Virus record (IMG/VR): IMGVR_UViG_3300027763_000084
Span: 1-48,495 of that record
From: a virus
Strand: one strand, 5' to 3'
DNA: 48,495 nt
Shown: positions 4,790-25,470 of the stretch, piece after piece
Position numbering within the stretch: position 1 is the first letter of the stretch
Layout of the letters: each line of letters begins with the position of its first letter
Made by a program: the position numbers and the translations under genes
The notes under the pieces: model-generated
What the model saw: only the letters and a program-made list of their open reading frames with translations
The model's database searches: none
What the model was told of the DNA's origin: nothing

Positions 4790-6307
4790 TTAAACTGTGT
4801 AAAACCGCTCACGGCGGTGGCTCTTAAACCATTGAATCTCTTCAGGCTCATCGCTTGGTAAGCGTAGGAACCCACCCTGACGAAAGCGCATCAACGCTAG
4901 TGTCGTCGCATCAACCAAGTCATCATGCTCGCCTGACGGAAACGCCCCAATCTCGTCGACTAATTCTTCAGCCCAACGAGTCTGCGGCACCCATACTTTT
5001 CCACTGGCGATGATATCGCTAACAGAGTTCAAGCGGGCAATTTTGTCTTGCCCTTTACCCGGCGTGTATTCCTGAACTGGAATACCCATCGCTCTTAAGT
5101 CGTAGATTAGTGGCGCACCAGACGCCTTCTTTTCCACAATTAATGAGTCAGGTTCATACTCGTTGTACTCTCTAAGCACATCTCTCTTTAACTCGGGGAA
5201 CTCAACACGTTTCTTATATGTGTTGAGGAGGATAATATTCGGCGCAAAGTTATCTTCCTCACAGTTGAAGATGCCCCAAGTTGTCCCTGCGGAATAGTCA
5301 GCACGCTGGGTTTTCTCAAAGGCGGTATCCCATGACTGCAAGATATAGTCACACTGAGGAGGATTGTCTTTATCCCACCACTTCCACCAGTCTCGTTTGA
5401 TAATTGCACTTTCATTACCAATAGGATTTTGCTGGTATTGTGCCTGCCACTTGGAATTTGGCAATTCTTCACGTAAAGCCGCAAGCTCTTCAAGGCTCCA
5501 GAATTGCGGCCATAGGGGATTACCCGAAGGGAGAATTGCAGGGAACTCAATGACTTCCCACTCTTCTCCAGACCTTTGAGCCGCACTTTTAACCACTTGT
5601 CCGGTCAAATCCCGTGCTGCCCAACGTGTCATCACAATCACAATCGATCCGCCCGGTTGCAGACGCTGGCGCGGGCCAGATGTATACCACTCATAGACCT
5701 TATCGTAGATTTCTGGGTTTGAAGCCGCCATTGCAGCCTCTTGTTCTGAGTGCGGGTCGTCAATAATTAGGATATCAGCACCTTTTCCGGTCACGGCACC
5801 GCCCACACCAATGGCGAAATAGTCGCCACCCTTGTTTGTGTTCCACCTACCAGCCGCTTTTGAGTCTTGTTGCAGCCCCACACCCGGAAATATCTCTGTA
5901 TAAACGTCCTGATCGACCAAATTTCGCACTTTTCGACCAAAACCCACGGCTAATTCAGCCGTGTGGGACGTTTGAATCACTTTTTTCTCTGGAAAGTTGC
6001 CTAAAAACCATGCTGGCAGCAAATATGAAGCAAATTCTGATTTGGTATGGCGTGGTGGCATGTTAATTATGAGCCTTTTGCACTCTCCACGGGCTACACG
6101 CTCAAACGCCTTGGCCATTCTCTTGTGGTGTGAACCCTCAATGAAGCTAGGCCACACCTTTTTTACAAAAGACATGAACGATCGGCGAGCTTCTTCCCTA
6201 TCAGCAAGAATCTCCTGCTCATCTAACGATACGATGAGGTCGCGGAGTTGTGCTTCAGGAAGATTTGGCAGAATTTTCAGCAGGTTCTGTAGTTTCTGGT
6301 GATCCAT
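4790..6307 (-). CDS. terL: Terminase large subunit
   Basis: DNA-packaging motor: an ATPase plus nuclease that cuts concatemeric DNA and pumps it into the head. The ATPase half has a variant Walker A at residues 84-91 (PPRHTKSE) and a Walker B at 178-184 (ADILIIDD), with MTRWA near 226-230 as a coupling segment. The RNase H-fold nuclease half has SWDTAF (Asp327), VEKKASG (from about 391) and EHDDLVDA (Asp462/463), the expected three acidic positions. Length 505 aa is normal for the family. The start overlaps the preceding terS candidate by 53 bases and has only a weak ribosome binding site, so a slightly later start is possible; the function is secure. Confidence 0.95.
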   Translation of the reverse strand: MDHQKLQNLLKILPNLPEAQLRDLIVSLDEQEILADREEARRSFMSFVKKVWPSFIEGSHHKRMAKAFERVARGECKRLIINMPPRHTKSEFASYLLPAWFLGNFPEKKVIQTSHTAELAVGFGRKVRNLVDQDVYTEIFPGVGLQQDSKAAGRWNTNKGGDYFAIGVGGAVTGKGADILIIDDPHSEQEAAMAASNPEIYDKVYEWYTSGPRQRLQPGGSIVIVMTRWAARDLTGQVVKSAAQRSGEEWEVIEFPAILPSGNPLWPQFWSLEELAALREELPNSKWQAQYQQNPIGNESAIIKRDWWKWWDKDNPPQCDYILQSWDTAFEKTQRADYSAGTTWGIFNCEEDNFAPNIILLNTYKKRVEFPELKRDVLREYNEYEPDSLIVEKKASGAPLIYDLRAMGIPVQEYTPGKGQDKIARLNSVSDIIASGKVWVPQTRWAEELVDEIGAFPSGEHDDLVDATTLALMRFRQGGFLRLPSDEPEEIQWFKSHRRERFYTV

Positions 6308-6923
6308 CTTTTACTTTAGTGGCCTCGAGTTGAGCTAACTCGTCATCGTCGTCGACGCCGAGGTCTTTCTTTGTATTCTTGGGGGTTACATCTGTAACGC
6401 CTATAGATAGTAGGCGGTTAATCTTCTGTTCAATGACCTGCTGGAGATCACTGGATGAGCGATGTGTAATAGTGATTTCAGACTTCTCGGAGAACGCACC
6501 AATATCTGACATTTTTCCAATGAGTTCTAAAGCACGAAGTTCTGACTTGGTGTCACCACAGGTGCTTAGCTCTAGCAACCTGTTCATAATATATGTACGC
6601 GCTTGCGTCGCATCAACCACTACGCGGTGGTCATACTCTGTTAGCAAAGCTGCAAGTTTAAGGGCTACGTTACCTTGATAGAGAGACGGTGGATTTGAGA
6701 TCTCCTTATCCTGACCATTCTTCTTTTGCTTTTTATCAAACTGCGCAAATAGCTTGCGTGCTTCCTCGTCGTCCTCTTCCGTCATCTCAAACGGCATGCC
6801 GAGCTCAGCCATTATTGTTGACGTCATAGCAGCAATGCGCACATTTTCTTGGAGGGACTGGCCTACCTGCTCGGAGAGCGAAGTTGGAACTGGGTGTTCA
6901 TTTGTAGGCTGTATTTCTGTCAT
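6255..6923 (-). CDS. Probable terminase small subunit
   Basis: Lies directly upstream of terL and overlaps it, the normal place for the DNA-recognition subunit. The product (222 aa from the ATG at 6923) is acidic and helical. It has EMTEEDDEEARKLFAQFDKK, a helical block QARTYIMNRLLELSTCGDTK, then ELRALELIGKMSDIGAFSEK and a terminal ITITHRSSSDLQQVIEQKI before an acidic tail. I recall similar 'alter the age of block' patterns (LE..G..ADVG.FSEKSE) from small terminases of related phages, but no family hallmark is decisive. The frame stays open to a TTG at 7025, which has no ribosome binding site; the ATG has only a weak TGGTG. Confidence 0.62.
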   Translation of the reverse strand: MTEIQPTNEHPVPTSLSEQVGQSLQENVRIAAMTSTIMAELGMPFEMTEEDDEEARKLFAQFDKKQKKNGQDKEISNPPSLYQGNVALKLAALLTEYDHRVVVDATQARTYIMNRLLELSTCGDTKSELRALELIGKMSDIGAFSEKSEITITHRSSSDLQQVIEQKINRLLSIGVTDVTPKNTKKDLGVDDDDELAQLEATKVKDGSPETTEPAENSAKSS

Positions 6924-7239
6924 AAGCACCAAAGTAAATTGGGAAGTGTCAGGTACTAGCCGCCCGTCCACAAGCTTAAAAGTTTGCGCGGCATTCCCCG
7001 ACCGGCTAAATGTAACAGATTCCAAAATTTTTGCAAAAATATTTTTTGCTTGTCTTGATACTTTGATACCGGGGGGTGTTTTTAAAACACGTATGGTAGA
7101 TGTACCTTAAAGAAAAACAAAGGGGGTAGGGGGGTAAAAATGAAACAGTGACGTCTAGAGTGCGACACACAGTGTTGGTGCCTTGGGAGTCCCTTGCTGA
7201 GAATTTGGGGGGTGGGGGTCACCGATTCGGGGATATTTT
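6924..7239. other. Gene-free region between terS and the first paralog cassette
   Basis: About 320 bases without a convincing gene. On the minus strand it must carry the promoter for the packaging operon. The best sigma70-like match is TTGCAA, 16 bases, TACATT near 7009-7036, which is weak. At 7076-7090 there is a perfect AT-rich palindrome, GTGTTTT-T-AAAACAC, a possible operator. The plus strand has runs of five or six G at 7120-7135 and 7207-7218. No start codon with a good ribosome binding site opens a frame of useful length. Confidence 0.5.
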
Positions 7240-7326: not shown

Positions 7327-7980
7327 TCAGTCTTCGATCGTGTATTCTATATCAGTGTTCTCGTCCAGTAACTCCAAGATAGCTTGAAGCTTCTCTATAT
7401 CAGTGCACTTGGAAACAAGCTCTTTCACTTCGGCTCGGGCGGCTTTGAGCTCTTCTCCGAGAGCTTTGTTCTCTTCGCTTGTCTTTGCGCGAATGACCTT
7501 CTCGAGCTCTTTCTGGGTCTTCTTGAGCTCTTTGTCCTCGGGCTTGTCTGCGAGCTTCTTGTAGTTCTTAGCCAACTGGTCGCGGAGCTCCCATGCGCTT
7601 TGATCTTCATACTTCTCAAGCAAAGCCTCTTGAGCTTTCTCTCTCTGCTCTGACTTCTTCACGGCGGCGGCTCCGGTGCTCTTGGGCTTTGTCATGCCGT
7701 AGAGCTCGTCCAGCAACTTCGCAAATTCCTTCCAAGCTTTGTCGCTCGCGTTCGCGGTGAGGTCTGGGTTTTGATGAGCGTGCCCGTCAACCCACTGGAC
7801 GCGATAAGCCTCCCACTCTTCGTAGCTGGGCTCTGCTCCGAGAGTTTGAGCCGCTGAAGTAACGACCTCTACGCGCTCGAGCTTGTTACGAGCAAATCTA
7901 GACCCCTGCTCGTATGCTTGGGTTTCGCGGTCGAATGATAGAGCTTTGATCGCTCCGGCTACTGTAGACAATTCAGTCAT
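7327..7980 (-). CDS. Paralog A of a tandem pair: charged helical protein of unknown function (217 aa)
   Basis: The ATG follows GGGAG. It forms a single-gene unit with its own terminator and upstream leader repeat. The protein clearly resembles the neighbouring gene at 8237: both have a short N-terminal helix (ELSTVAGAIKAL here), a (A/T)EP(S/T)YEEW block at about residue 50, a D/N..WK.F..LLDELYG-like helix, then AAVKKSEQREKAQ before a long Lys/Glu-rich coiled coil, and an end with a dozen acidic residues. No enzyme motif, membrane segment or cysteine pair is visible. The EP.YEEW core is the most conserved part and is probably the functional surface. Family not recognised. Confidence 0.85.
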   Translation of the reverse strand: MTELSTVAGAIKALSFDRETQAYEQGSRFARNKLERVEVVTSAAQTLGAEPSYEEWEAYRVQWVDGHAHQNPDLTANASDKAWKEFAKLLDELYGMTKPKSTGAAAVKKSEQREKAQEALLEKYEDQSAWELRDQLAKNYKKLADKPEDKELKKTQKELEKVIRAKTSEENKALGEELKAARAEVKELVSKCTDIEKLQAILELLDENTDIEYTIED

Positions 7981-8236: not shown

Positions 8237-8875
8237 TTAGTCGGTTACTGTCTCGGCCTGTACGTCGTAATCAGGGTTCATCATCTCATGCGCCAATGCC
8301 AGCCGGTCTAGATCGTTGCATGTGCGTATCCACGCAATGAGTTCATCACGTACGGCCTTCAGTTCCTCGCGTTGCCCCTCGGCCTCTTGCTTGACGCGTA
8401 GTGAGACGGCTTTTTCAAGTTCCTTCAGGATGGCTGATTTCTTGGTTGGGTTTTTTGCCTGTGCCTGATATTCATTACTCAGCAAGTCTTTTAAGACTCT
8501 GGTGCTAGTGTCGGCGTATCTTGCTTCTAGTGCATCCTGTTTGGCCTTACGTTCCTCGGCCTTTTTTAATGCGGCCTCGGTCTGGGCTTTGGGGGCTTCT
8601 AATCCATACGCATCTACCAAACGGCCTCTGAATCGTTTAAATGCTTGGTCGGCTGAGTTGCCCTTGGCCTGTGGCTTGGTACGCACATAGGCGTTGATGA
8701 ATTCAATCCTGCATGAATTCCATTCCTCATATGTCGGCTCAGTTCCTACCGACTTAGCAAACAGTTCTAATGCTTGACCAGCGTCTATTTCAGATTGAGC
8801 AAACAGTTCACCGGATTGCTTGGCAAGATCGGCTTGGGTTGCGTTGATGGCTTGGGCTACTTTAGTAAGTTCCAT
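8237..8875 (-). CDS. Paralog B of a tandem pair: charged helical protein of unknown function (212 aa)
   Basis: The start at 8875 was preferred to 8905 because AAGGAAA precedes it, and because MELTKVAQAI then aligns with the N terminus of paralog A (MTELSTVAGAI). The core TEPTYEEWNSCRIEF, the RLVDAYGLEAPKAQTEAAL stretch and KKAEERKAKQDALEARYAD match the same positions in the 217-aa gene, at a level I judge near 30 percent identity by eye. The middle is a coiled coil and the end is acidic (NPDYDVQAETVTD). It has its own terminator and leader repeat. It is the first gene left of the iteron-like region, so it is probably transcribed from there. Confidence 0.85.
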   Translation of the reverse strand: MELTKVAQAINATQADLAKQSGELFAQSEIDAGQALELFAKSVGTEPTYEEWNSCRIEFINAYVRTKPQAKGNSADQAFKRFRGRLVDAYGLEAPKAQTEAALKKAEERKAKQDALEARYADTSTRVLKDLLSNEYQAQAKNPTKKSAILKELEKAVSLRVKQEAEGQREELKAVRDELIAWIRTCNDLDRLALAHEMMNPDYDVQAETVTD

Positions 8876-8968
8876 GATTTTCCTTAGGTTAGTGGATACT
8901 GACATACTGACCCATCGTCAATATGTCCCTGCCTTGATAGCACAAACCAATCAATATCCTATCCCGTA

Positions 8969-9032: not shown

Positions 9033-9348
9033 AATGTTCTAGATTTGTCTTTTTTCGAACATTACAGAACATTGTAAGTCCTTGATTTATAAGCAATGTT
9101 CTTAATGTTCCAAATGTTCTAGGGTTTTTGGAAAAAATGGATTTTTCAATTATTGCAGTTCGGCAAGGCTCTCCGGCAAGTGCAAAGTTCGGGGGGGCGG
9201 TACTTTTATTTATTAAGAACATTATATAACAATAGAACAATACATACACTACAAATCTAAAACATTATTAAAAACAACAACTTACGCCAATTCCACAATG
9301 TTCGAATTTTTCCTCCTAATGTTCGAATTTTTTCATTTTCAGAACATT
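9033..9348. repeat. Iteron-like array of AATGTTC/GAACATT; candidate origin or master operator
   Basis: Ten exact heptamers in 316 bases. Plus orientation: 9033, 9095, 9104, 9113, 9297, 9318. Minus orientation: 9057, 9067, 9217, 9342. The three at 9095-9119 are spaced exactly nine bases apart. The pair at 9297 and 9318 share a longer AATGTTCGAATTTTT word. The pair at 9057/9067 are ten bases apart. Degenerate copies occur at 9235 and 9260. The region is very AT-rich, has no gene, and separates the minus-strand and plus-strand transcription units. Dense short repeats beside an AT-rich stretch at a divergence point are typical of replication origins or of an operator field bound by a regulator. 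Confidence 0.8.
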
Positions 9349-9410: not shown

Positions 9411-9439
9411 TTGACAAAGTATAGTATTTGTGTTATACT
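9411..9439 (+). promoter_or_regulatory. Strong sigma70-type early promoter
   Basis: TTGACA (perfect -35), 17-base spacer, TATACT (five of six in the -10). It would begin RNA near 9446 and drive the whole early operon up to the terminators at 15684-15746. It lies just to the right of the heptamer array, so proteins bound there could control it. Confidence 0.9.
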
Positions 9440-9469: not shown

Positions 9470-9549
9470 ATGCGCCACACGCGCCAAGCCACTTCAGCGA
9501 CATTCTGACACTTGGTCATTTTGTCTTTTCTTTTACTTTGGAGGTTCTT

Positions 9550-9774
9550 ATGACTATCTGCACAACTATTCGCGTAGGCCTGCACACAACCGAGCGTGGC
9601 GTCGTGCTATCACAGTACCGATGCATCCTTTCCGGCATGGAAGGCGTCCAGACTGATGAAGACGCAATTGACTACGTTCGTAGGCGCATCGCTTGCGATC
9701 GTATGTTTGGCCGCAACGCTCTGCTCGACATGATCGACAACAACAACTACTCAATTGAAAGGACAACCGCGTGA
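9550..9774 (+). CDS. Early small protein of unknown function (74 aa)
   Basis: First gene after the strong early promoter. The ATG at 9550 follows GGAGG by five bases; the frame is open further upstream but without a usable start. Contains TTIRVGLHTTERGVVLSQYR and DAIDYVRRRIACDRMFGRN; no known motif. Immediate-early phage genes in this place are often host-takeover peptides, which is inference. The stop overlaps the GTG start of the next gene. Confidence 0.7.
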   Translation: MTICTTIRVGLHTTERGVVLSQYRCILSGMEGVQTDEDAIDYVRRRIACDRMFGRNALLDMIDNNNYSIERTTA

Positions 9775-10010
9775 CCAACAACGCCAACCTAAACGGCTAC
9801 TGCTCTACTACCGGATGCTCTAACGGCATCGGTAGGAAACGCGCTCAGTATGGGCACCTCGTATGCAAAGCGTGTGGGGAACTCAATGCTAGAGAAGCAA
9901 GACTAGGATGGTGCGTGGCTATCCCCTATTCCAAGGGTGCGTACCAACTAATCACCGACTCTGCCGATCTGAGCAATACCAATCCGAAACAAACAAGGGG
10001 GATGAAATGA
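9771..10010 (+). CDS. Small zinc-finger-like protein (79 aa)
   Basis: GTG start, overlapping the previous stop as GTGA, with AAGGA upstream. Four cysteines (Cys11, Cys16, Cys32, Cys35) in a C-x4-C...C-x2-C arrangement suggest a zinc-binding fold. The C-terminal half is polar. Target unknown. Confidence 0.7.
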   Translation: MTNNANLNGYCSTTGCSNGIGRKRAQYGHLVCKACGELNAREARLGWCVAIPYSKGAYQLITDSADLSNTNPKQTRGMK

Positions 10011-10968: not shown

Positions 10969-12063
10969 ATGGAAGTACGCATGAACACCGAAGTTTCTTT
11001 GAAAGAAGCGATGGAACTTATCCTTGCAGTAGGTAATAGCAACTCAATCCACTTAGTGGGCGAGCCCGGAATTGGCAAAACTGCTATGTTTGAAAGCGTA
11101 GTAGAGAGAACAGGTTATCGTGGCGTGTACATCGATGTACCTAACACCGAGCTTGGCGATCTTGGTATCCCAATGCCAAATCACGAAACCAAAACAACTA
11201 GCTTGTATCTCAACGACCATTGGGGTTTCCACAAGAACGAGCCTTTGGTTGTTTTCTGTGACGAGTTTACCAAGCCCTCATCTATGGCGGTGCAGAATAT
11301 GCTACACCCACTATTAAACGAGCGCCGGATCGGTGGTTGCAAGTTGCACCCTGATAGCATAGTAATCACTGCCGGTAACAATACGACCGACGGCGTGGGC
11401 GATATGTTGAAGGCTCACTCTATCAGCCGTATGACAATTACGCCTATCAAGAAACCACATGCCGGATTCAAAGCCGACGGGTCTGTCGATGATGATTCGT
11501 GGGGCTATTGGGCTTTGAATAGTGGGAAGATTCAGCCCGAGGTGGTCGCATGGATTAAGGCGTACCCTCATGCGCTTGCGTCATACAAAGACCCTAGCCA
11601 AGCAGATAACCCATACAACTTTAACCCAAAGACTCCTCAGAAGTCCTATGTATGCCCACGCTCATTGCACAAGGCGAGTAACTTAATTGGGATCCGCAGC
11701 CAGATTACGCGTAACGCTCTCATTACTGGCTTAACAGGAACGATAGGCGAATCAGCCGCGCGCGACATGGTTGCGTATGTGGAGGTTGCCGACTCACTCC
11801 CGACATGGGAAGAAGTTATCAACGACCCCAAGGGTTGCAAATTACCTAGCTCACCTGCTGCTCTTAACATCATGGCATTTGGTGCTATGCAACGGATAGA
11901 CCGAGCAACGATCGGCAAATGGTTCGAGTACTTGAAGCGCACTCCCAAAGAGTTGCAATCAGTATTCTGCTTGACCACTAGCAAAAACCCTGAGAAGAAA
12001 CAAATCCTCATGACAAGCGGCTCGTTTGTTACATGGATGCGTGATAACCAATACTTATTCTGA
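10969..12063 (+). CDS. MoxR/CobS-type AAA+ ATPase
   Basis: AGGAG stands eight bases before the ATG at 10969. The AAA+ core has Walker A at residues 31-39 (GEPGIGKTA), a YIDVPNTELGDLGIP segment, Walker B at 94-99 (VVFCDE), sensor 1 ITAGN near residue 142 and a SRMTITPI arginine-finger region. It ends with a helical domain. MoxR ATPases remodel target proteins or load metals, almost always with a VWA-domain partner; such a partner is encoded two genes downstream. It has no HTH or sigma54-type element, so it is not a transcription activator. Cytoplasmic. The first gene of the MoxR-VWA block of the early operon. Confidence 0.88.
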   Translation: MEVRMNTEVSLKEAMELILAVGNSNSIHLVGEPGIGKTAMFESVVERTGYRGVYIDVPNTELGDLGIPMPNHETKTTSLYLNDHWGFHKNEPLVVFCDEFTKPSSMAVQNMLHPLLNERRIGGCKLHPDSIVITAGNNTTDGVGDMLKAHSISRMTITPIKKPHAGFKADGSVDDDSWGYWALNSGKIQPEVVAWIKAYPHALASYKDPSQADNPYNFNPKTPQKSYVCPRSLHKASNLIGIRSQITRNALITGLTGTIGESAARDMVAYVEVADSLPTWEEVINDPKGCKLPSSPAALNIMAFGAMQRIDRATIGKWFEYLKRTPKELQSVFCLTTSKNPEKKQILMTSGSFVTWMRDNQYLF

Positions 12064-12082
12064 TACTAAGAAAGGAAACATC

Positions 12083-12343
12083 ATGGCTTATATGCACTTA
12101 GATCGTATGCCCGAGAGCGATTGGGACAATATCGAAGCGGCATCAGATGCTATCGGTCAAATCTTGGAGGGTTGCAACTTCAACGTATCGATGCACTCAT
12201 TGCTATACGTGCTAGCACATTGTGGAATTCAGCTTGAGAAGGACGGAATGATTCGTAGTCAGTTTGTCCACGCGGTGACCGCAGAACTTCAGCAGAACAT
12301 GAAGGATATAACCGAGGTAAGAAAAGAAAGGGGAGAGGAATGA
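12083..12343 (+). CDS. Small protein between MoxR and VWA genes (86 aa)
   Basis: The ATG at 12083 follows AAGGAAAC and was chosen over the longer frame, which overlaps the MoxR gene. Contains WDNIEAASDAIGQILEGCNF, a helix, and a later FVHAVTAELQQNMKDI helix. Not recognised. Its place suggests an accessory to the ATPase. Confidence 0.65.
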   Translation: MAYMHLDRMPESDWDNIEAASDAIGQILEGCNFNVSMHSLLYVLAHCGIQLEKDGMIRSQFVHAVTAELQQNMKDITEVRKERGEE

Positions 12344-12429
12344 TGACTAGATGGGAGAAGTTAGAGAGGGCAATCTTATTGCTTGCCTTTATTGTGTTGG
12401 TTCTTGATTTATTCTATTGGAGACCTTGA
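12340..12429 (+). CDS. Tiny single-pass membrane peptide (29 aa)
   Basis: ATGATG start overlapping the previous stop by four bases, with GGGGAGAGGA immediately before it; the stop TGA is one base before the ATG of the VWA gene. The peptide has a charged N terminus (MMTRWEKLERA) and one hydrophobic helix (ILLLAFIVLVLDLFYW). Exact packing between neighbours and the good ribosome binding site argue that it is real. It might tether the MoxR-VWA complex to the membrane; this is only inference. Confidence 0.55.
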   Translation: MMTRWEKLERAILLLAFIVLVLDLFYWRP

Positions 12430-12430
12430 T

Positions 12431-13702
12431 ATGAAGCTAACAGCGGAACAGCGCATTGAGCGTGCGCACGTGAAACTCATGCAGAGTAAAAACTTTTGTT
12501 ACTTTGCAGGGGTGTTTATGATCGGGAAGGTAGATGTAAGCGACACGCTTAAAACTGCTAGTACCAACGGAAGGGATGTATCTTACGGGCGTGAGTTCGT
12601 GGATATCCTATCCGACAAGCAACTGGCGTTTCTCGTTATACATGAGGCGATGCACAAGGCCTATCGTCATTTGACTGTATGGCAGAAGATCGCTAAAGAG
12701 AACCGGCAATTAGCTAATGCCGCGATGGATTACGTTATCAACTTACAGATACGTGATGCCGACCCACACGAAGAAGAAGTTGCTATGCCTCGCAAGCCCG
12801 ATGGTGAGTTACTGGGACTATACGATGACAAGTATCGCGGCCTCGACACGCACCAAGTTTACATACTACTCAAGGAAGAAGGCGGTGGCGGTGGTGGGAC
12901 TGGAGGGGACGATGATGGTGATGGTAATGGTAGCGAGCAAGGGAACGGTCTGGGTGGGGGTGGCTCGGGACAAAGTGACGAAGCGTCAGATGGTCTTGAC
13001 GAACACGATTGGGATGGTGCCGAGAGTATCGATGGCGAAGCCAAAGAAGAACTTGAGCGTGAGATCGATAGTGCGCTACGTGAAGGCTCTATCCTAGCAG
13101 GGAAGATGAAAGGCAATGTCCCTCGTGAGATCAACGATCTGCTACACCCCAAGGTTGATTGGAAGGAAGCCTTGCGTGACTTTATTAAAGTAGCAACGCG
13201 AGGTGGCGACCAGTCGACATGGCGTAGACCTAATCGTAGGTTCTTGGCTAACGGCATCATCATGCCATCGACCGAATCGTATCGGGCTGAGACTTTCGTT
13301 CTTGGTGTTGATACGTCAGGCTCGATTGGTGGTGCTGAGCTAACCGCATTTCTCTCCGAGGTCAAATCGATATGCGAGGAGGTAACTCCGCAAAAGCTCG
13401 AACTGCTGTATTGGGATACTCATGTAGCAGGACGCGAAACCTATGTGGGGGCGGAGATGGAAACTCTTGTCGATAGCACGAAACCAAAAGGTGGTGGAGG
13501 AACCACGCCCGGGTGTGTCCCTAAATACATCATCGAGCATAGGATAGAACCACAATGCACGATCATGTTGACGGATGGTTATTTCTTTGGGGGAGGTTGC
13601 GGTGATTGGGGTGGCGTTAATTCGCCAGTATTGTGGTGCGTCAAAGGTAACAAAGAGTTTGTACCTACGCATGGTCAGGCTGTTCTAGTGGAGGGCTTAT
13701 GA
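12431..13702 (+). CDS. Metallopeptidase-VWA protein (DUF2201-like), partner of the MoxR ATPase
   Basis: ATG at 12431 with TTGGAG upstream. Residues 66-80 hold a zinc-protease-type HEAMH (71-75), as in the putative metallopeptidase domain that precedes VWA-like domains in the DUF2201 family. Then comes a long Gly/Asp/Ser linker (151-200). The C-terminal VWA domain has a complete MIDAS: DTSGS (Asp294, Ser296, Ser298), Thr358/359 and LTDGY (Asp382). VWA proteins of this kind bind a metal and present substrates to MoxR ATPases. Both halves keep their key residues, so the protein is likely active. The stop is ATGA-coupled to a small RHH-like gene. Confidence 0.88.
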   Translation: MKLTAEQRIERAHVKLMQSKNFCYFAGVFMIGKVDVSDTLKTASTNGRDVSYGREFVDILSDKQLAFLVIHEAMHKAYRHLTVWQKIAKENRQLANAAMDYVINLQIRDADPHEEEVAMPRKPDGELLGLYDDKYRGLDTHQVYILLKEEGGGGGGTGGDDDGDGNGSEQGNGLGGGGSGQSDEASDGLDEHDWDGAESIDGEAKEELEREIDSALREGSILAGKMKGNVPREINDLLHPKVDWKEALRDFIKVATRGGDQSTWRRPNRRFLANGIIMPSTESYRAETFVLGVDTSGSIGGAELTAFLSEVKSICEEVTPQKLELLYWDTHVAGRETYVGAEMETLVDSTKPKGGGGTTPGCVPKYIIEHRIEPQCTIMLTDGYFFGGGCGDWGGVNSPVLWCVKGNKEFVPTHGQAVLVEGL

Positions 13703-13887
13703 AAGCGAATCGATATGGCGTTACTGTATCTGCGCAGGCAGGTGAGCAACTTAAAGAGTTGCAGAAAATCTTTGAGCGTAAGGTGGGCTTCGAGCCTTCT
13801 CTTGCTCAAGTGGTGGAGTATCTCATTAGCCGAGAGTACCAAGACTCGGTTGGTGGGGACAAAATGACTAATAGTAAGAATGTCTAA
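13699..13887 (+). CDS. Small ribbon-helix-helix-like protein (62 aa)
   Basis: ATGA overlap with the VWA gene. RYGVTVSAQAGEQLKEL followed by VGFEPSLAQVVEYLISR gives a strand-helix-turn-helix pattern typical of Arc/MetJ-type DNA-binding proteins. Could repress its own operon. Not matched to a named family. Confidence 0.62.
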   Translation: MKANRYGVTVSAQAGEQLKELQKIFERKVGFEPSLAQVVEYLISREYQDSVGGDKMTNSKNV

Positions 13888-13903
13888 TCAAGGAGATAGC
13901 AAC

Positions 13904-14788
13904 ATGACAACAGTAAATCAAATCGACTCAGTAGGTATCGCAACTTCTAGCATGCTAGTGGAACTCAATATTTCTTGTTGGACTGCACGCAAGCTCGACA
14001 AGAAAGTATCTGAGGAAATCGATACTGCCAAGAACACAAATGTCAAAGCAGGTAACTACCACAAACATTTGTTGGCAGGCAACCCTCACTTGGATGCGGT
14101 GGTTAAATATGCGGCTAATGTAAGACTGTGGAACACCAAGCAAACTATCCCTTGGTCGGATGCAGGTGGTCGTATCGTGACTATGGAGAACTTGTTCAAT
14201 GGTGGGTACAAGAGCCAACTTGATAACCACAAGATGGAATTCGAGCGATTGGCCACGAACTTTATTAACATCTATCCTACGCTGATATCAGCATCGGCAT
14301 TTCAACTTGGGGATCTCTTCGATCGTAATGAGTACCCTGAGGCCGAGGAGATTGTTAAGAAGTTTAAATTCAACTACACGCTATCGCCCTTGGCTACATC
14401 GGGTGACTTTCGTATCGACATAGGCGAACAGGCGCGGAATGAAATCATTCAGCACTACGAGGAACAATTCCAAGAGCGACTCAATAGCGCAATGCGTGAT
14501 GTTTGGGATAGACTGCACACTTGCTTAACGCATATGAGCGAACGCTTAACGAGCGAGGAGGATGGTACAAGAAAGAAGTTTCATGGTACTTTGCTAACCA
14601 ACGCGCGTGAGCTTGTGGACTTACTGAACCGACTCAATGTCACGCAAGACCCACAACTTGAACAGGCAAGACGAGATTTATCGGCAGCACTTCTGAATAC
14701 AGATATTGATGCTTTGAAAGACAGCGACTATGTGCGTGAGAACGTCAAGCAGAAGGTCGATGCCATCATTAACAAATTTAACTGGTAA
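13904..14788 (+). CDS. Protein of unknown function in the MoxR-VWA operon (294 aa)
   Basis: The ATG at 13904 has AAGGAG upstream; the frame open from 13880 lacks one. Largely helical. The N-terminal segment (ELNISCWTARKLDKKVSEEI) is followed by HKHLLAGNPHLDAVVKYA, a WSDAGGRIV segment, and a C-terminal coiled region with FHGTLLTNARELVDLLNRLN. No catalytic motif seen. Constant company with MoxR and VWA genes makes it the best candidate for a client or third component. Confidence 0.72.
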   Translation: MTTVNQIDSVGIATSSMLVELNISCWTARKLDKKVSEEIDTAKNTNVKAGNYHKHLLAGNPHLDAVVKYAANVRLWNTKQTIPWSDAGGRIVTMENLFNGGYKSQLDNHKMEFERLATNFINIYPTLISASAFQLGDLFDRNEYPEAEEIVKKFKFNYTLSPLATSGDFRIDIGEQARNEIIQHYEEQFQERLNSAMRDVWDRLHTCLTHMSERLTSEEDGTRKKFHGTLLTNARELVDLLNRLNVTQDPQLEQARRDLSAALLNTDIDALKDSDYVRENVKQKVDAIINKFNW

Positions 14789-14800
14789 TAAGGAAACACC

Positions 14801-15664
14801 ATGACTTTGAGTTTAGATTTTAAGAAGTACGACAAGTGCGAGTTGTTGCCCAAGCTCGAGATGTTTTTGAACGATCTTGCTATCCGCAAACCAAATGTAA
14901 AGTTTGTTGTAAGTGGTACGCGAACAGATAATGGCGAGCGTAAGGTGCGAAGCGTTGACGTTTACGATGGTTACGAGAAGGTCGGTGCTATCAGCATAGA
15001 GCAGGACTATGGCAGAAGAAACGCGGGGGAAGATATGTATGAAGTATCGTCCCCGAAGATTGTCAAGTCACGTGGCAGTGCCGACACTAGATCAACTAAG
15101 CATTACAAGAAAGCGTTGAAGCTAGCTAACGATCTGTTCGATAAGTCCCCTGCCGATGTACTAGCAAAGCAGATACATGGGAGAGTAGAGGAATCTATGT
15201 TAAGCATGGTGCGTTCAGCCGAGCAACAGTTTGAGCATAGCTTCTACAACCCACTGGCAGATATTGGTATGTATCTACACAAAGTGAAAAACGAAGGCCC
15301 GCAACCTTTCCCGACTGAGCTTGAACCTAAGTTTGGCAAAGAGTGGATGGATAAGGGTGACAACTATCGCATTGCTAAATCGTTAATGACTAAGTTTGAC
15401 AAGCATAAGGATGGTGTTGCTATTCGCATAGAGATTGATGGCACTATCAATGTAGTAGACATTGCTACCATGAGTATGCTGTACGAAGCGAAGTCAACCT
15501 ACGACTTACCGGATAACTATCAAGAGAAGATTACTATCGCTAAGATTCTCGAGCATAGACAACCAGTAGAACATATTGGCGTAAGGTTTGACGATGCTTC
15601 TCAAGATCACCCCGAGAGAGCTTACTTCTATCTAGTAGGTGGGGAAACATTCACCGACTGCTAA
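14801..15664 (+). CDS. Protein of unknown function in the MoxR-VWA operon (287 aa)
   Basis: Last gene of the early operon, 12 bases after the previous one, ribosome binding site AAGGAAAC. The first 100 residues alternate strands and helices (VKFVVSGTRT, VRSVDVYDGYEKVGAISIEQ). The middle is helical, and the C-terminal part has VAIRIEIDGTINVVDIA and ends in AYFYLVGGETFTDC. Not recognised. Tandem terminators follow after 20 bases. Confidence 0.7.
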   Translation: MTLSLDFKKYDKCELLPKLEMFLNDLAIRKPNVKFVVSGTRTDNGERKVRSVDVYDGYEKVGAISIEQDYGRRNAGEDMYEVSSPKIVKSRGSADTRSTKHYKKALKLANDLFDKSPADVLAKQIHGRVEESMLSMVRSAEQQFEHSFYNPLADIGMYLHKVKNEGPQPFPTELEPKFGKEWMDKGDNYRIAKSLMTKFDKHKDGVAIRIEIDGTINVVDIATMSMLYEAKSTYDLPDNYQEKITIAKILEHRQPVEHIGVRFDDASQDHPERAYFYLVGGETFTDC

Positions 15665-15683
15665 GTTAATTACTTAACTACCG

Positions 15684-15719
15684 AGACACAATGACTACTA
15701 GTCATTGTGTCTTTTTTTA
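15684..15719 (+). terminator. Very strong rho-independent terminator
   Basis: Thirteen-base-pair perfect stem (AGACACAATGACT with its complement at 15700-15712), three-base loop, then seven T. Ends the early operon. Confidence 0.96.
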
Positions 15720-15720
15720 T

Positions 15721-15746
15721 GCCCGACCATTGTGTTGGGCTTTTTT
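15721..15746 (+). terminator. Second terminator in tandem
   Basis: GCCCGAC pairs with GTTGGGC (one G-T pair) around a short loop, followed by six T. It overlaps the -35 region of the next promoter, so the second unit starts where the first is doubly closed. Confidence 0.75.
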
Positions 15747-15758
15747 ATGTGCTATACT
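15730..15758 (+). promoter_or_regulatory. Promoter of the VRR-NUC unit
   Basis: TTGTGT, 17-base spacer, TATACT, with a TG one base before the -10 (extended -10). The -35 is weak and shares bases with the second terminator stem. RNA would begin about 15765, giving a 16-base leader that holds GGAGGAG. Confidence 0.75.
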
Positions 15759-15780
15759 GAGTCAACATTGGAGGAGAATT

Positions 15781-16074
15781 ATGGCGATGACACCCGAGGG
15801 TAAAGTAAAAGCTAAAGTTAAAAAGACTTTAGACATGATGGGCGCATATTACTTTATGCCTACCACTGGTGGATATGGGCGTAGTGGAATCCCCGATATC
15901 ATTGGTTGCTTAAATGGTTTATTCTTCGCGATTGAATGTAAGGCTAAGAGTGGCACTACAACTGCATTGCAAGATAGAGAGCTAGCGAAAATACATCTCG
16001 CTGGCGGGCGGCCTTTAGTTATCAACGAGGCCAACGTGGAAGGCCTAGAGACATTGTTGCTAAGCAAACAATGA
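15781..16074 (+). CDS. VRR-NUC domain nuclease (97 aa)
   Basis: ATG at 15781 after GGAGGAG; the longer frame from 15691 runs through the terminators and promoter and is rejected. The protein is a minimal VRR-NUC fold: MTPEGKVKAKVKKTL helix, GRSGIPDIIG (catalytic Asp), LFFAIECKAKSG (the E-x-K pair), TALQDRE (conserved Gln), and the last strand RPLVINEA. The family covers Holliday-junction-like nucleases (FAN1) and single-domain phage enzymes often found with helicases; here an SNF2-like helicase is in the same unit. Probably a structure-specific DNA nuclease in replication or recombination. Confidence 0.9.
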   Translation: MAMTPEGKVKAKVKKTLDMMGAYYFMPTTGGYGRSGIPDIIGCLNGLFFAIECKAKSGTTTALQDRELAKIHLAGGRPLVINEANVEGLETLLLSKQ

Positions 16075-16147
16075 CCGTTCCCAAGAAGAAACCATAGAGT
16101 TTCGCGGTAGGCCAAAACTAAAAATTGTTTTAACAAGAGAAAACTAA

Positions 16148-16312
16148 ATGGAACAACTGAAATATTTATCCAAGGCGATGCCTTTACGCCTCTGTACTGA
16201 CCCTAAGTTCAAGTACAGAAACGCATCCCAAACCGATGTGCGTAGGACATGGCGCAAAGCTAGACTCCTTATGTTGCTGACTAAGGGGGTGGCGTATGAA
16301 AGCCGTACTTGA
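16148..16312 (+). CDS. Tiny basic protein (54 aa)
   Basis: ATG with a weak AGAG upstream; MEQLKYLSKAMPLRLCTD then a basic helix VRRTWRKARLLMLL. The end overlaps the start of the next gene by 17 bases. Codon use and position fit a real gene, but the support is modest. Confidence 0.5.
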   Translation: MEQLKYLSKAMPLRLCTDPKFKYRNASQTDVRRTWRKARLLMLLTKGVAYESRT

Positions 16313-16472
16313 GTTTAACTATCCACATGATGAGCCCAAGCTGAAGCATGCGCTAAAGGGTGAGGAATACTACTTAGCGTTGGTTGAGATTGATAGAGCG
16401 TTGACGGCCTCTGACAGAGACGACATGCTATTTAGGATTAACCGAATACTTGAGGGGGTGCTTGAAGAATGA
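16296..16472 (+). CDS. Small phage protein (58 aa), MKAVLEFNYP family
   Basis: ATG preceded by GGGGGTGGCG; the stop is ATGA-coupled to the next gene. Starts MKAVLEFNYPHDEPKLKHAL and ends in a helix pair (LALVEIDRAL, MLFRINRILEGVL). Proteins opening MKA(V/I)LEFN.P with a similar length are common in tailed phages, usually without known function. Recalled from memory. Confidence 0.65.
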   Translation: MKAVLEFNYPHDEPKLKHALKGEEYYLALVEIDRALTASDRDDMLFRINRILEGVLEE

Positions 16473-17263
16473 CAGATGCGGAAAAGAAAGCACTCGCCGC
16501 CGCTAAAAACAAGGAGTACCGAGAAGCTAACAGGGAGTTGCTGAAGGAGAAGCGTCGGGTTTACTTGGAAGCCAACAGGGAAAAGATCAGGGAAAGACAA
16601 CGAGAATACGCAAAAGTTTACGCAAAGAAAGTAAAGGCCTCTAAGACCGAAGCTGAACTTGAAGCCGATAGAGAACGCAGAAAGGCTTACTACTTAGCAA
16701 CCAAAGAAATACAAGCACCGAAGCGGAAAGCATATCGTGCTACTCGCAAGGAACACATAGCCGCTAAAGCCAAAGAATGGTTTGAGAACAACAAAGAGCG
16801 AGCGTATGAGTACCGAAAGAAGTGGGAAGAAGCTAATAAGGAACACGTGATTGAGCGTAGTCGAAAGTACCACGAAGCTCGCAGAGAAGAAAAGAACGCG
16901 AAGCGAAGGGAACGCCACCATGCCAACAAAGAATACGAAAACGCAAGAAAGAAAGCTTGGTATGCGGCTAACAAAGATATAGAGAAAGCATATAGAGAAG
17001 CTAACAAAGAAAGAATAGCTAAACAAAGGAGGGAATACCATCAAGCTAATAAAGAAAAAATTAAAGCGCGTCAGGATGCGCACCGCAAGGCTCACCCTGA
17101 GAAACACAGGGAGAAATCCAAGAAACGGCATGCTAAAGCACCGGATTCATATATTCGAAGGCTTTATAACTTACCTGATTCGCCCGAGTTAATCGAAGCG
17201 GCAAGGTTAAGACTTTTTATTAAACGCAAAATATGGGAGATTGAAGATGAAACACATCAGTGA
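16469..17263 (+). CDS. Highly charged helical-repeat protein (264 aa)
   Basis: About thirteen degenerate units of roughly 15 residues built on Y..AN(K/R)E.I....R.. cover residues 10-215. Lys, Arg and Glu together make up about half of that region, so it should form one long single or coiled helix. The last 45 residues differ (SYIRRLYNLPDSPELIEAA) and look globular. Such repeats appear next to HNH-like domains in other phage proteins, but no HNH residues are present here. Possibly a nucleic-acid-binding rod. Function unknown. Confidence 0.72.
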   Translation: MTDAEKKALAAAKNKEYREANRELLKEKRRVYLEANREKIRERQREYAKVYAKKVKASKTEAELEADRERRKAYYLATKEIQAPKRKAYRATRKEHIAAKAKEWFENNKERAYEYRKKWEEANKEHVIERSRKYHEARREEKNAKRRERHHANKEYENARKKAWYAANKDIEKAYREANKERIAKQRREYHQANKEKIKARQDAHRKAHPEKHREKSKKRHAKAPDSYIRRLYNLPDSPELIEAARLRLFIKRKIWEIEDETHQ

Positions 17264-17468
17264 ATTGACAACAGAGTTATCTGAGTTATACGAAGGACTC
17301 AAGAACGGCTCAATGGATGTAAAGATTGCCACAGAGATGAACAACACAGCAGGAAAGATCATAAATGCACAGCGTGTACAGCTAGAGTATGCAGAACTTC
17401 GCAAAGAGCAACCTGACATTGACTTCATGAAGACCAAAGCTAAACCAAAGGCGAAGGTGGAAGCATGA
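17247..17468 (+). CDS. Small helical protein (73 aa)
   Basis: ATG at 17247 with GGGAG eight bases before, overlapping the end of the repeat protein. HISELTTELSELYEGLKNG then DVKIATEMNNTAGKIINAQR and LEYAELRKEQPDIDF. I recall similar small proteins near DNA-binding genes in phages; no function known. Confidence 0.7.
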   Translation: MKHISELTTELSELYEGLKNGSMDVKIATEMNNTAGKIINAQRVQLEYAELRKEQPDIDFMKTKAKPKAKVEA

Positions 17469-17785
17469 CACCCGAAGAACTGAATAAATTTATTGTCGAA
17501 GATAGCATCACTGTCGAAGGCATTACTGACGAATACGTTTGGTATCACGCTAAGCTTTTATCTACAAAGATGAGCCAGTGGGACAACGACTTTCAGAAGC
17601 TTGTCAAAGTGATGGAGTCCCGCCATAAAGAACACTTAGAGATGGTGCAAACCGCCCTACATGAGAACCGAATATTAAGGTTGCAGTTGCAATTGAAAGA
17701 AAAGGAAAAAAATGTTAAATCAACTAAACGTATGGGAAAAAGCAATGAGTTGGCGAAAGCGACAGATGGTAGAAGCAAATCTTAG
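17465..17785 (+). CDS. Small coiled-coil protein (106 aa)
   Basis: ATGA overlap with the previous gene. The N-terminal half has TVEGITDEYVWYHAKLL, and the second half is a coiled coil (ILRLQLQLKEKEKN) with a polar tail. The end overlaps the next gene by 74 bases in another frame, which is unusual, so one of the two ends may be less constrained. Confidence 0.6.
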   Translation: MTPEELNKFIVEDSITVEGITDEYVWYHAKLLSTKMSQWDNDFQKLVKVMESRHKEHLEMVQTALHENRILRLQLQLKEKEKNVKSTKRMGKSNELAKATDGRSKS

Positions 17786-17921
17786 CCGTGACTATACCAA
17801 TATACGCAATCAAGTATTAGAAGAGGTCGCCCGGGAATTCGACAAAATGAAAAACGGTGGCGACACAACTGCAAGCTTTGCAATATACGTTAGGAACATG
17901 AAAAGTGAATGGTTTTGTTAA
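17712..17921 (+). CDS. Small helical protein (69 aa)
   Basis: ATG after AAAAGGAAAAAA, inside the end of the preceding gene. WEKAMSWRKRQMVEANLSRD and NQVLEEVAREFDKMKNGG are helices; ends FAIYVRNMKSEWFC. A second ATG eleven codons later also has a GGGAAAAAG upstream and could be the true start. Not recognised. Confidence 0.6.
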   Translation: MLNQLNVWEKAMSWRKRQMVEANLSRDYTNIRNQVLEEVAREFDKMKNGGDTTASFAIYVRNMKSEWFC

Positions 17922-18105
17922 ACGACAGTTGGATATTGGAAGCAAGCAACCATTCCATAGATACAAAGAGTGTTCGCAGTGCAATGAGATGAAACCGCCT
18001 GAGGGTGGCGTACAGATGAGCCATACCAAATGGCACTGCGTAGTATGTTGGGCAAACAGAGTAACAAGGAGAAATTTAAAAAATGCCAAGGCCGAAACCG
18101 CCTGA
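17905..18105 (+). CDS. Small zinc-finger protein (66 aa)
   Basis: Overlaps the previous stop. Two C-x2-C knuckles (Cys23/Cys26 and Cys45/Cys48) separated by 18 residues, with HTKWHCVVCWANR at the second, give a likely zinc ribbon. The C terminus is basic. Probably binds nucleic acid or protein; target unknown. Confidence 0.68.
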   Translation: MNGFVKRQLDIGSKQPFHRYKECSQCNEMKPPEGGVQMSHTKWHCVVCWANRVTRRNLKNAKAETA

Positions 18106-18265
18106 GCCCCTGATAGGGAGACAGGTACGTATGTCAGATAGACATTGGATTATTTTTAATCAGCTAGGTGGAGCAGAGTGGTTACGACAAATGATTGTCA
18201 AGAAAACACCAATGCCCAAGAAGTATTACGACGATTTATTAAAGGAGAAGGAGGGTGCAAAATGA
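18083..18265 (+). CDS. Small phage protein (60 aa)
   Basis: AGGAG lies 12 bases before the ATG. Basic Pro-rich N terminus, then a MSDRHWIIFNQLGGAEWLRQ segment, which resembles a recurrent small phage module (a helix-turn with LGG..WLR). Coupled by ATGA to the zinc-ribbon gene. Confidence 0.65.
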   Translation: MPRPKPPEPLIGRQVRMSDRHWIIFNQLGGAEWLRQMIVKKTPMPKKYYDDLLKEKEGAK

Positions 18266-18465
18266 AATGCCCGAAGTGCAATGTGACCAAGTCAACAGTG
18301 CGAGAGACTCGGAAGGTAGACGAAGCAGTATACCGATACCGAATCTGCCTCGGGTGCGGAAACAGTTACAAGTCAGTGGAAACAATATTCGAAGGAGTAA
18401 TCCCAAGAGACAGGTCGACTGGTCAGCATGGTGGCCTTTCGAGAGAGCACAGGGGCAATGGTTGA
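18262..18465 (+). CDS. NrdR-like zinc ribbon, stand-alone (67 aa)
   Basis: Start ATG at 18262 with GGAGGG before it. MKCPKCN with Cys3/Cys6 and RICLGCG with Cys29/Cys32, spaced and flanked (STVRETRK...YRYR) as in the N-terminal zinc ribbon of the ribonucleotide reductase repressor NrdR. The ATP-cone domain that NrdR needs is absent; the protein stops soon after. It may be a truncated mimic that competes at nrd promoters or simply a DNA-binding ribbon. Confidence 0.72.
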   Translation: MKCPKCNVTKSTVRETRKVDEAVYRYRICLGCGNSYKSVETIFEGVIPRDRSTGQHGGLSREHRGNG

Positions 18466-18546
18466 TAGCCCTTAATAAACGCCAACCAAAACAAATAGCA
18501 TCAACAGAATACGAAGATGCAACTTTTTAAACTCAAGGAAAATCAA

Positions 18547-19101
18547 ATGGCTAAGAAGCAAACACGTGCTAGTAAGATTCGTAAATACCTCAATGACAAC
18601 CCAACAGCTAAAACCGCTGATGTTGCAAAGATGTTTGAGACACGATATCAAAATGTCTATGCAGTTCGTCGCAAGATGGAGACGCCAATGGTGTCAAAGG
18701 ATGCGCAATGGAAGACCCTTAAAGTGTTTAGTTCAGACAAACCCATAGCACAACTTGCGTATGAGGCGGGTAAATCACAAGCGCAAGTCGACAAGTACTG
18801 GAAAGCCGTAGGCGAAGTTCAGAAAGCGGCACTATCACCCGAGCGTATTGCTGAACTTACTGAACAGGCCGCTAAGCCCAAGGCACGTATGGAAGGCAAC
18901 CGAGGCGACCCCGTCAATCACCCTGCTCACTATAAGGTAGGTGGCATCGAGACAATTGACTTTATTGAAGCTAAGGACTTGAGCTATCACCTTGGCAACG
19001 TGGTTAAGTATGTAACTCGAGCCGACCACAAAGGCAACAAGTTGGAAGACTTGCGTAAAGCTCAGTGGTATTTGACACGTGCTATCGAGACTGCCAAGTA
19101 A
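18547..19101 (+). CDS. HTH plus DUF3310 protein (184 aa)
   Basis: ATG at 18547 after AAGGAAA. Residues 1-45 look like a helix-turn-helix (SKIRKYLNDNPTAKTADVAK, then YQNVYAVRRK), with a second similar HTH-like stretch at 60-85 (KPIAQLAYEAGKSQAQVDKY). Residues 115-184 are DUF3310: DPVNHPAHYKVGGIETIDFI, LGNVVKYVTRADHKG and DLRKAQWYLTRAI. DUF3310 occurs in the nucleotide kinase gp1.7 of T7 and in many phage proteins of unknown action. A role in nucleotide metabolism or its control just before the polymerase gene is plausible. Confidence 0.82.
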   Translation: MAKKQTRASKIRKYLNDNPTAKTADVAKMFETRYQNVYAVRRKMETPMVSKDAQWKTLKVFSSDKPIAQLAYEAGKSQAQVDKYWKAVGEVQKAALSPERIAELTEQAAKPKARMEGNRGDPVNHPAHYKVGGIETIDFIEAKDLSYHLGNVVKYVTRADHKGNKLEDLRKAQWYLTRAIETAK

Positions 19102-19117
19102 TCTAATTGGAAACCAA

Positions 19118-20956
19118 ATGAACATAATCACCATCGATTTTGAAACGTACTACGATCAGCAATTCAGTCTGACCAAATTAACAACAGAGGAGTACGTTCG
19201 TGATGAGCGTTTTGAAGCGATCGGTGTTTGTGTCAAGGTAAACGACGAACCGACTGAATGGTTTAGTGGGGCACGCGAACAAACAAAAGCGTGGCTTGAT
19301 ACGTTCAACATGCCGGAGAGTTTTGTGGTAGCCCATAACATGATGTTTGATGGAGCTATCTTAGCGTGGCACTTCGACATCCATCCAAAGGTGCTTGGTG
19401 ATACGCTAGCAATGGCACGTGCAGTTGATGGCACGGAGGTTGGCAACAGTCTTGCAAAGCTAGCTCTGCGCTATGGGTTGGGGGCTAAAGGTACAGAGGT
19501 GTTAAATGCGTTGGGCAAGAACCGACGTAGCTTTACCCCTGACGAGCTAGCTCGCTATGGAGAGTATTGCAAGAACGACGTAGAGATAACCTACCAACTG
19601 TTTAACATTCTTCTCGCAAACTTCAAGAAGAAAGAACTGAAACTGATTGACTTAACTTTACGTATGTTCACAGCACCAGTGCTTGAGTTGAATCTCCCGC
19701 TACTTGAGCAACATCTTATTGATGTGGTATCCAAGAAGGAACAGCTCATCGCCGACGCCAGCGCCGATCGCGAAGTACTTATGTCAAACGAGAAGTTTGC
19801 CACTAGGCTACGTGAGTATGGTGTTGAGCCTCCTATGAAGATCAGCCTGACGACAGGCAAACTTGCACTTGCTATGGCTAAGAGTGACGCAGGGTTTAAA
19901 GATTTAGCTGACCACCCTGACGAGCGAGTGCAAGCACTGGTGGCGGCACGACTAGGTACTAAGAGTACGCTAGAAGAGACAAGGACTCAGAGGTTTATTG
20001 ATATATCTAAGCGCGGCAAGTTACCCGTCCCACTACGCTACTACGCGGCACACACAGGCAGATGGGGCGGAGACGACAAGCTTAATCTTCAAAATATCCC
20101 TCGCAAGTCACCGCTGAAGCTATCAATCATCCCGCCCGAAGGCTATGTGCTAATTGACTCCGACTCCTCACAGATTGAGGCTCGGATATTGGCGTGGCTA
20201 TCAGGACAGAAAGACTTGGTCAAAGCGTTTGAAGTGGGCGACGACGTTTATAAGTTGATGGCGGCTTCTATATATGGCAAGACGCAAGATCAGATTACCG
20301 ACGAAGAACGTTTTGTTGGTAAGACCACTATTCTTGGTTGTGGGTACGGCATGGGCGCGGCTAAGTTTCAGCTTCAGCTAAAGAATTTTAATGTCACGAT
20401 GGACGAAAACTTTTGCAAGCAAGTGCTTCAAGCATACCGAAGTAAGTTTTCCCATATAACTGCATTGTGGGACGCAGGGCATAGATCGCTTGAAGCTTTA
20501 TCATCAGAAAAGCTGGTCACTACGCCGTTTGGTGTCCAACCACAAGCAGTGAGTATTCTCCCCGGAATTGGCTACGATTTGCCTAGTGGTTTGCCCCTAA
20601 AATACATGGATTTACGTGCTACGGAAGTTGACGAAAGAGGCCGTCCGCAGTATATTTATTCGACACGCAAAGGCCCAGTTCGTATCTATGGCGGTAAGGT
20701 TGTTGAGAACCTTTGCCAAGCTCTTGCTAGATGTGTAATCGGTGAGCAGATGCTACGGATTGCCAAGCGTTACAAGGTTGTGCTGACTGTCCATGATGCT
20801 GTTGCTTGCGTAGTACCGATAGAAGAAAAAGAAGTGGCAGCAGCTTACGTTCAAGAGTGCATGCGTTGGCGTCCCGAGTGGGCACAGACCTTGCCGCTTA
20901 ACTGCGAAGTTAAGTATGGTGACAGCTACGGCACTACAACAAAATTTAAAGGGTAA
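19118..20956 (+). CDS. Family A DNA polymerase with 3'-5' exonuclease
   Basis: Replicative polymerase, 612 aa from the ATG at 19118. The exonuclease domain is intact: DFE (Asp7, Glu9), HNMMFD (73-78) and Y...D (Tyr150, Asp154). The polymerase domain has motif A D-S-S-Q-I-E (from Asp349), the O-helix K-T-T-I-L-G-C-G-Y-G (Lys402, Tyr410) and motif C V-H-D-A (Asp560). Two points are odd. The residue equal to Phe762 of E. coli Pol I is Leu406. Motif C has Ala where Glu is usual. There is no 5' nuclease domain, as in other phage enzymes. Upstream GGAAA is a modest ribosome binding site. Confidence 0.96.
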   Translation: MNIITIDFETYYDQQFSLTKLTTEEYVRDERFEAIGVCVKVNDEPTEWFSGAREQTKAWLDTFNMPESFVVAHNMMFDGAILAWHFDIHPKVLGDTLAMARAVDGTEVGNSLAKLALRYGLGAKGTEVLNALGKNRRSFTPDELARYGEYCKNDVEITYQLFNILLANFKKKELKLIDLTLRMFTAPVLELNLPLLEQHLIDVVSKKEQLIADASADREVLMSNEKFATRLREYGVEPPMKISLTTGKLALAMAKSDAGFKDLADHPDERVQALVAARLGTKSTLEETRTQRFIDISKRGKLPVPLRYYAAHTGRWGGDDKLNLQNIPRKSPLKLSIIPPEGYVLIDSDSSQIEARILAWLSGQKDLVKAFEVGDDVYKLMAASIYGKTQDQITDEERFVGKTTILGCGYGMGAAKFQLQLKNFNVTMDENFCKQVLQAYRSKFSHITALWDAGHRSLEALSSEKLVTTPFGVQPQAVSILPGIGYDLPSGLPLKYMDLRATEVDERGRPQYIYSTRKGPVRIYGGKVVENLCQALARCVIGEQMLRIAKRYKVVLTVHDAVACVVPIEEKEVAAAYVQECMRWRPEWAQTLPLNCEVKYGDSYGTTTKFKG

Positions 20957-20958
20957 GC

Positions 20959-21633: not shown

Positions 21634-21634
21634 T

Positions 21635-22259: not shown

Positions 22260-22260
22260 C

Positions 22261-23814: not shown

Positions 23815-23838
23815 CACAGTCAACAAAGGATGTATAAT
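23811..23838 (+). promoter_or_regulatory. Very strong sigma70 promoter for the SSB unit
   Basis: TTGACA, 16-base spacer, TATAAT: both hexamers perfect. The promoter overlaps the last codons of the helicase gene. RNA would start about 23845. It probably gives extra transcription of the ssDNA-binding protein gene, which is needed in large amounts. Confidence 0.93.
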
Positions 23839-23871
23839 AAGCACTCCCAATTCATAAACCTAAGGACACAT

Positions 23872-25450: not shown

Positions 25451-25470
25451 ATCGCGGTGCAGAGGCGGCT

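Follow-up and report, generated by a model that had tools for sequence, protein, structure and literature searches.

We analyzed an IMG/VR virus contig over a window of 48,495 bases, in which a field of short repeats (positions 9033–9348) is most probably an iteron-type replication origin, where a phage-encoded initiator would act on AWTGTTC iterons and melt the AT-rich stretch that they flank. In its layout and its likely starter protein, this proposed origin is closer to the staphylococcal pathogenicity islands and their kin than to well-studied phages. The window does not qualify as a satellite, an element without a full set of virion genes, since genes for terminase, portal, and virion proteins are recognized in it along with replication genes.

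A heptamer field surrounds the weakest DNA of the window

The heptamer AATGTTC is found in 10 exact copies between 9033 and 9348, six on the plus strand (9033, 9095, 9104, 9113, 9297, and 9318) and four on the minus strand (9057, 9067, 9217, and 9342). A count over the whole 48.5 kb gave only two others, at 57 and 3434, and no place of equal density. With the consensus of the relatives, AWTGTTC, an 11th copy is added, ATTGTTC on the minus strand (9235–9241). When the 525-bp gap was dinucleotide-shuffled 2000 times, no shuffle contained more than two copies of AATGTTC, and the commonest heptamer of any kind reached at most eight copies per 316 bp, usually two to three. The field is the densest heptamer cluster of the window, the runner-up, with six copies, overlapping it.

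The copies are organized into two sets around an AT-rich minimum (9201–9250), the arrangement always observed in PICI origins (PMC6092414). The left set (9033–9119) includes three direct plus-strand copies with a 9-bp period (9095–9119). The right set (9217–9348) is composed of the inner iterons, one AATGTTC and one ATTGTTC on the minus strand (9217–9241), which adjoin the melting region and overlap the minimum, and of the outer iterons (9297–9348), two direct copies 21 bp apart (9297 and 9318), both within the word AATGTTCGAATTTTT, and one inverted copy. A two-fold mirror arrangement of the heptamers, striking by eye, was rejected: it involves four symmetric sites, and random placement typically gives four to six. 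To the right of the field, a sigma-70-type promoter for the rightward (replication) genes, TTGACA-17-TATACT (9411–9439, plus strand), matches the consensus at 11 of 12 positions and is kept in the relatives. Searches of the window against Rfam and for tRNAs gave no matches.

The field has a GC content of 31.6% and is where the window's DNA is least stable by nearest-neighbour energies, be it over 50 bp (9201–9250), 100 bp (9200–9299), or 300 bp (9039–9338); the weakest 50 bp form the predicted DNA unwinding element. In 10 of 12 relatives, the record's weakest 60-mer likewise lies in the array region, taken with a 400-bp margin and with limits set by hand before the scan; in G017 and G018, the weakest 60-mer of this region ranks second and third, respectively. 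The original prediction, drawn from the letters of the DNA, had described the ten-copy array with its 6/4 strand distribution, its 9-bp triplet, and its pair sharing a longer word, and had called it far beyond chance, AT-rich, and adjacent to a near-consensus promoter; the data above bear out each of these points. It had also pointed to GC skew, whose cumulative minimum is indeed found, in all 10 records compared, within about 0.2–3 kb of the array, a weak argument for an origin since transcription diverges at the same place and skew is inseparable from gene direction. No DnaA-box cluster was found in the field, where a single one-mismatch match is present at 9127, and matches across the window are fewer than expected.

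A constant box and a core word accompany the repeats

To the left of the direct iterons lies a constant box, GTAAGTCCTTGATTTATAAG (9074–9093, plus strand), which in relatives stands beside differing repeat types. In all the fetched loci, many of them related to each other so that the counts are not independent, the box TAAGTNNTTGAT has 62 distinct occurrences, and 47 of these fall in repeat clusters, defined by a heptamer with five or more copies at a distance of up to 300 bp. The four words used as controls occurred 3, 0, 0, and 3 times, with 0, 0, 0, and 1 occurrences in clusters. The box thus adjoins the repeats irrespective of their type. An exact inverted partner of the box is present in the arrays of five relatives, while the window carries a degenerate one (AAAAACAACAACTTAC, 9270–9285, minus strand). 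Exact left-right pairing was discarded as a rule, being restricted to five arrays, with the second box mostly degenerate. The core word GCAAGTGCAA (9176–9185, plus strand) has a corresponding mid-array position in relatives; by inspection of the arrays, with no statistics, it is seen in the middle of most of those read.

The array keeps its place while the repeat changes

Relatives were collected by scans with the neighbouring AAA ATPase (15) and with the terminase (80); all are metagenomic contigs, many of them partial, and their repeat types were assigned from counts and visual inspection. Close relatives carry 10–11 copies of AATGTTC at the corresponding place. In others, the layout is retained but ATTGTTC is interspersed, which makes the consensus AWTGTTC, with a free second base. 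A pattern search showed the right-hand 21-bp pair to be common to 13 IMG/VR stretches. The direct iteron set has an 8-bp period in G020, where the inner right position holds three ATTGTTC, and is reduced in L021 to two copies with a spacing of 10 bp. Relatives sharing this gene order retain an array, so that the lack of conservation that would have refuted the original prediction did not occur.

The repeat itself differs in a part of them. At the place of the array, AWTGTTA is found in G015–G019, G021, G023, G035, G041, G049, and others, GTTACG in G043, G045, and G046, TGTAAGA in G029, and, less clearly, TGTAGT in G003. These genomes have the same gene order and more distant replication genes, and the independent switches of repeat among the relatives are few. 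Neither an AWTGTTC cluster nor a clear repeat array was found in the parts read of Pseudomonas phage Rollin, whose DUF927 protein matches at 32%. Two arrays have unusual neighbours. About seven tandem copies of a TTAAGCA-containing unit adjoin the array of G016 (L195, 3100–3300), in this relative only. Just left of the array of L013 (7300–7330), a stretch on the minus strand (GTTCGAATCCCTCTCGC) looks like a tRNA T-arm; ARAGORN finds no tRNA there, and the stretch is possibly a former attachment site or a product of chance.

The repeat type follows the replication cassette

The structural genes of the window are closest to those of G015 (portal 91%, large terminase 88%), whereas its genes at about 6.3–28.5 kb are closest to those of clade A. 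The DUF927 protein and the polymerase of the window match those of G001, a clade A member, at 77% and 73%, versus 44% and 57% for G015. Its repeat, AWTGTTC, is that of G001 and clade A, while that of G015 is AWTGTTA. Since repeat and cassette genes match clade A and the portal and terminase match G015, the array goes together with the replication genes of the cassette and not with the structural genes. The cassette boundary (6.3–28.5 kb), drawn from sequence comparison, suggests exchange of a whole module. In addition to the genes considered below, the cassette encodes on the plus strand an AAA ATPase, a DUF2201/VWA protein, a nuclease, a family A polymerase, an exonuclease, and an SNF2-type helicase (10969–24264), as assigned by protein searches and synteny. 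Two tandem paralogous leftward genes (7327–7980 and 8237–8905) are both retained in clade A, and a small four-cysteine zinc-finger protein, weakly DksA/TraR-like (9771–10010), adjoins the proposed origin in nearly every relative.

The nearest annotated relatives by terminase are Phage DSL-LC04 (57%), itself assembled from a metagenome (PMC10611076), phage 023Pt_psg01, and Pelagibacter phage HTVC027P; the replication gene sets of DSL-LC04 and HTVC027P differ from that of the window. No similar DNA was found in known phages. A scan of genome contigs for a host gave two MAG contigs, from a beta-proteobacterial and an actinomycete bin, at 44–45%, matches too weak to name one.

A PrimPol-DUF927 helicase is the likely initiator

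The likely initiator is a 958-residue PrimPol-DUF927 helicase (25417–28293, plus strand; DUF927, 2.8e-28). Compared with solved structures, the profile of this protein's family matches SCCmec Cch (5dgk, 1.1e-13) and the PrimPol of cyanophage S-2L (6zp9, 0.0027). Foldseek with a structure model of the helicase, of moderate confidence (pLDDT 73.8, pTM 0.46), retrieved 5dgk (2.5e-19), SaPIbov1 Rep (8tch, 4.9e-15), and 6zp9 (4.1e-8). The protein is placed among the self-loading helicases of the Rep/Cch kind by homology alone. Cch, a DUF927 protein, is related to SaPIbov1 Rep, and the C-terminal domain of SaPI Rep recognizes the iteron origin (PMC7581432); in the P4 alpha protein, a winged helix binds the origin repeats (PMC4234260). 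By analogy with these proteins, an initiator role is likely for the helicase. In our model, residues 872–930 or so show the order strand-helix-helix-strand-strand, which, read by eye, is winged-helix-like. One feature runs counter to an origin served by this protein: the array (9.2 kb) is 16 kb away from the DUF927 gene (25.4–28.3 kb), a distance also seen in G001.

A second candidate reader, of the box or of the iterons, is an 80-residue HTH protein (25162–25404, plus strand) conserved with the replication genes. Its recognition helix, SRMTIYNWF, is identical in G011 (AWTGTTC), G015 (AWTGTTA), and G043/G046 (GTTACG), so that it may just as well be a reader of the constant box. In G003, but not in the GTTACG genomes, this protein shows the highest relative divergence (ratio 1.14, closely followed by the nuclease at 15691 with 1.12), and the C-terminal part of the DUF927 protein shows no excess divergence in G003. 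Neither of the two clearly tracks the iteron type.

We infer origin function, the binding partners, the direction, and the order of events as follows. The phage-encoded initiator, most likely the PrimPol-DUF927 helicase, would load on the AWTGTTC iterons that flank the AT-rich stretch, possibly through its C-terminal winged-helix-like region, and would melt the DNA at about 9200–9250, where synthesis would start. The helicase could be self-loading, forming a ring, and could also prime synthesis by the family A polymerase of the phage. The constant box would be the target of a second conserved factor, perhaps the 80-residue HTH protein.

Operators and other functions considered for the field

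A separate element, a 27-bp palindrome, GACA-N3-TGAC-N5-GTCA-N3-TGTC, has five exact copies in the window (8115, 8901, 9499, 10900, and 15685; 0.2 expected) and three near copies (12242, 12969, and 13858), all between 8.1 and 15.7 kb. Those at 8901, 9499, and 10900 lie about 25–45 bp ahead of probable start codons. The copy at 8901–8927, outside the heptamer system, precedes a leftward gene (probable start codon at about 8875), and that at 9499–9525 precedes the first rightward gene (ATG at 9551); both are operator candidates. The palindrome is found in most clade A relatives and is absent from clade B, where the early regions (in G015–G018, G021, and G023) have instead 12–19 TAACA-N1-3-TGTTA palindromes per record, sharing a half-site with the iterons of those genomes. 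G019 carries an AWTGTTA array but a single such palindrome. In G011, the 27-bp palindrome seems to have changed to GACA-N3-TTAG-N5-CTAA-N3-TGTC. A 62-residue RHH-like protein (13699–13887) occurs in several palindrome-carrying genomes; in clade B, neither this protein nor the palindrome was found.

The original prediction had left the field as either an iteron origin or a master operator. The origin half of it is favoured by the conservation of the array, the melting and skew minima, the association of the repeat with the replication genes, and a helicase of the Cch/SaPIbov1-Rep type. That the heptamers serve as operators of a master transcription regulator over the divergent early and late units is improbable. 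Their position between these units and next to a good promoter would suit such a role, and the shared half-site in clade B means that one protein may read both elements there; the heptamers are, however, confined to the field and absent from the other promoters of the window, which speaks against control of several genes, and it is the palindrome that precedes several of them at far above expectation. The operator system thus looks like the palindrome series rather than the heptamer field. In addition, G019 keeps its array with one palindrome only, and an operator would leave unexplained why the genome's melting minimum is there in most relatives.

Packaging sites may contain short repeats, and some 2 kb separate the field from the terminase genes. 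Moreover, the product of 6255–7025, encoded just upstream of the large subunit, where the small subunit usually is, also diverges according to clade. A pac site for the small terminase subunit is nevertheless very unlikely, as the repeat type does not follow the large terminase or the portal (88% and 91% between the window and G015, with different repeats), no similarity was detected between the 6255–7025 product and the annotated relatives' small subunits, and the melting minimum would again be unexplained. Least probable of all is a binding site of the partition or nucleoid type, or a structural DNA element of some other kind. Such systems also use arrays of short sites, but no ParA/ParB-type gene was recognized among the searched proteins, and the field goes with the replication genes and the melting minimum.

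Comparison with known replication origins

The proposed iteron origin has its closest parallel in the SaPI/PICI elements such as SaPIbov1, with which it shares two short-iteron sets around an AT-rich melting site (PMC6092414), a related DUF927-type helicase (8tch, 5dgk), and a repeat sequence that varies between relatives. The predicted winged-helix-like region at about 872–930 would be the counterpart of the iteron-binding C-terminal domain of SaPI Rep. The two nevertheless differ: SaPI/PICI are satellites with the origin just downstream of rep, whereas here a phage has its field between divergent transcription units, 16 kb from the helicase gene, together with an extra constant box and a PrimPol fused to the helicase. 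Cch, of SCCmec, is the closest solved sequence relative of this helicase, and a putative AAGTG-iteron origin is described for Cch/Cch2, but this belongs to an SCC element and adjoins the gene; for Cch2, of another helicase family, only three iterons are described.

Phage P4 alpha likewise combines primase, helicase, and winged-helix origin-binding parts in one repeat-binding protein (PMC4234260). The likeness concerns the make-up of the protein, and P4 has a bacterial Toprim-type primase where the window encodes an AEP PrimPol. Iteron plasmid origins of the RepA/RepE type also have direct repeats adjoining an AT-rich region. Here, by contrast, the melting site is surrounded by repeats in both orientations, the field has no DnaA-box cluster, and no RepA/RepE-type initiator was recognized among the searched proteins.

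If the origin reading is correct, a widespread group of freshwater phages, known almost exclusively through metagenomics, gains a mapped origin, with a link to the replicon of the pathogenicity-island satellites. These phages would also provide a naturally occurring series of iteron sequences that share one scaffold, suited to the study of changes in origin specificity, and the constant box beside variable iterons would offer a concrete, testable division between two binding factors. More tentatively, a large and almost wholly uncultivated phage lineage may have a SaPI/PICI-style origin with constant box, core, and melting site, in which the iterons have been repeatedly replaced, such that relatives sharing capsids would not use each other's origins, and the origin and its reader would move together as a cassette.
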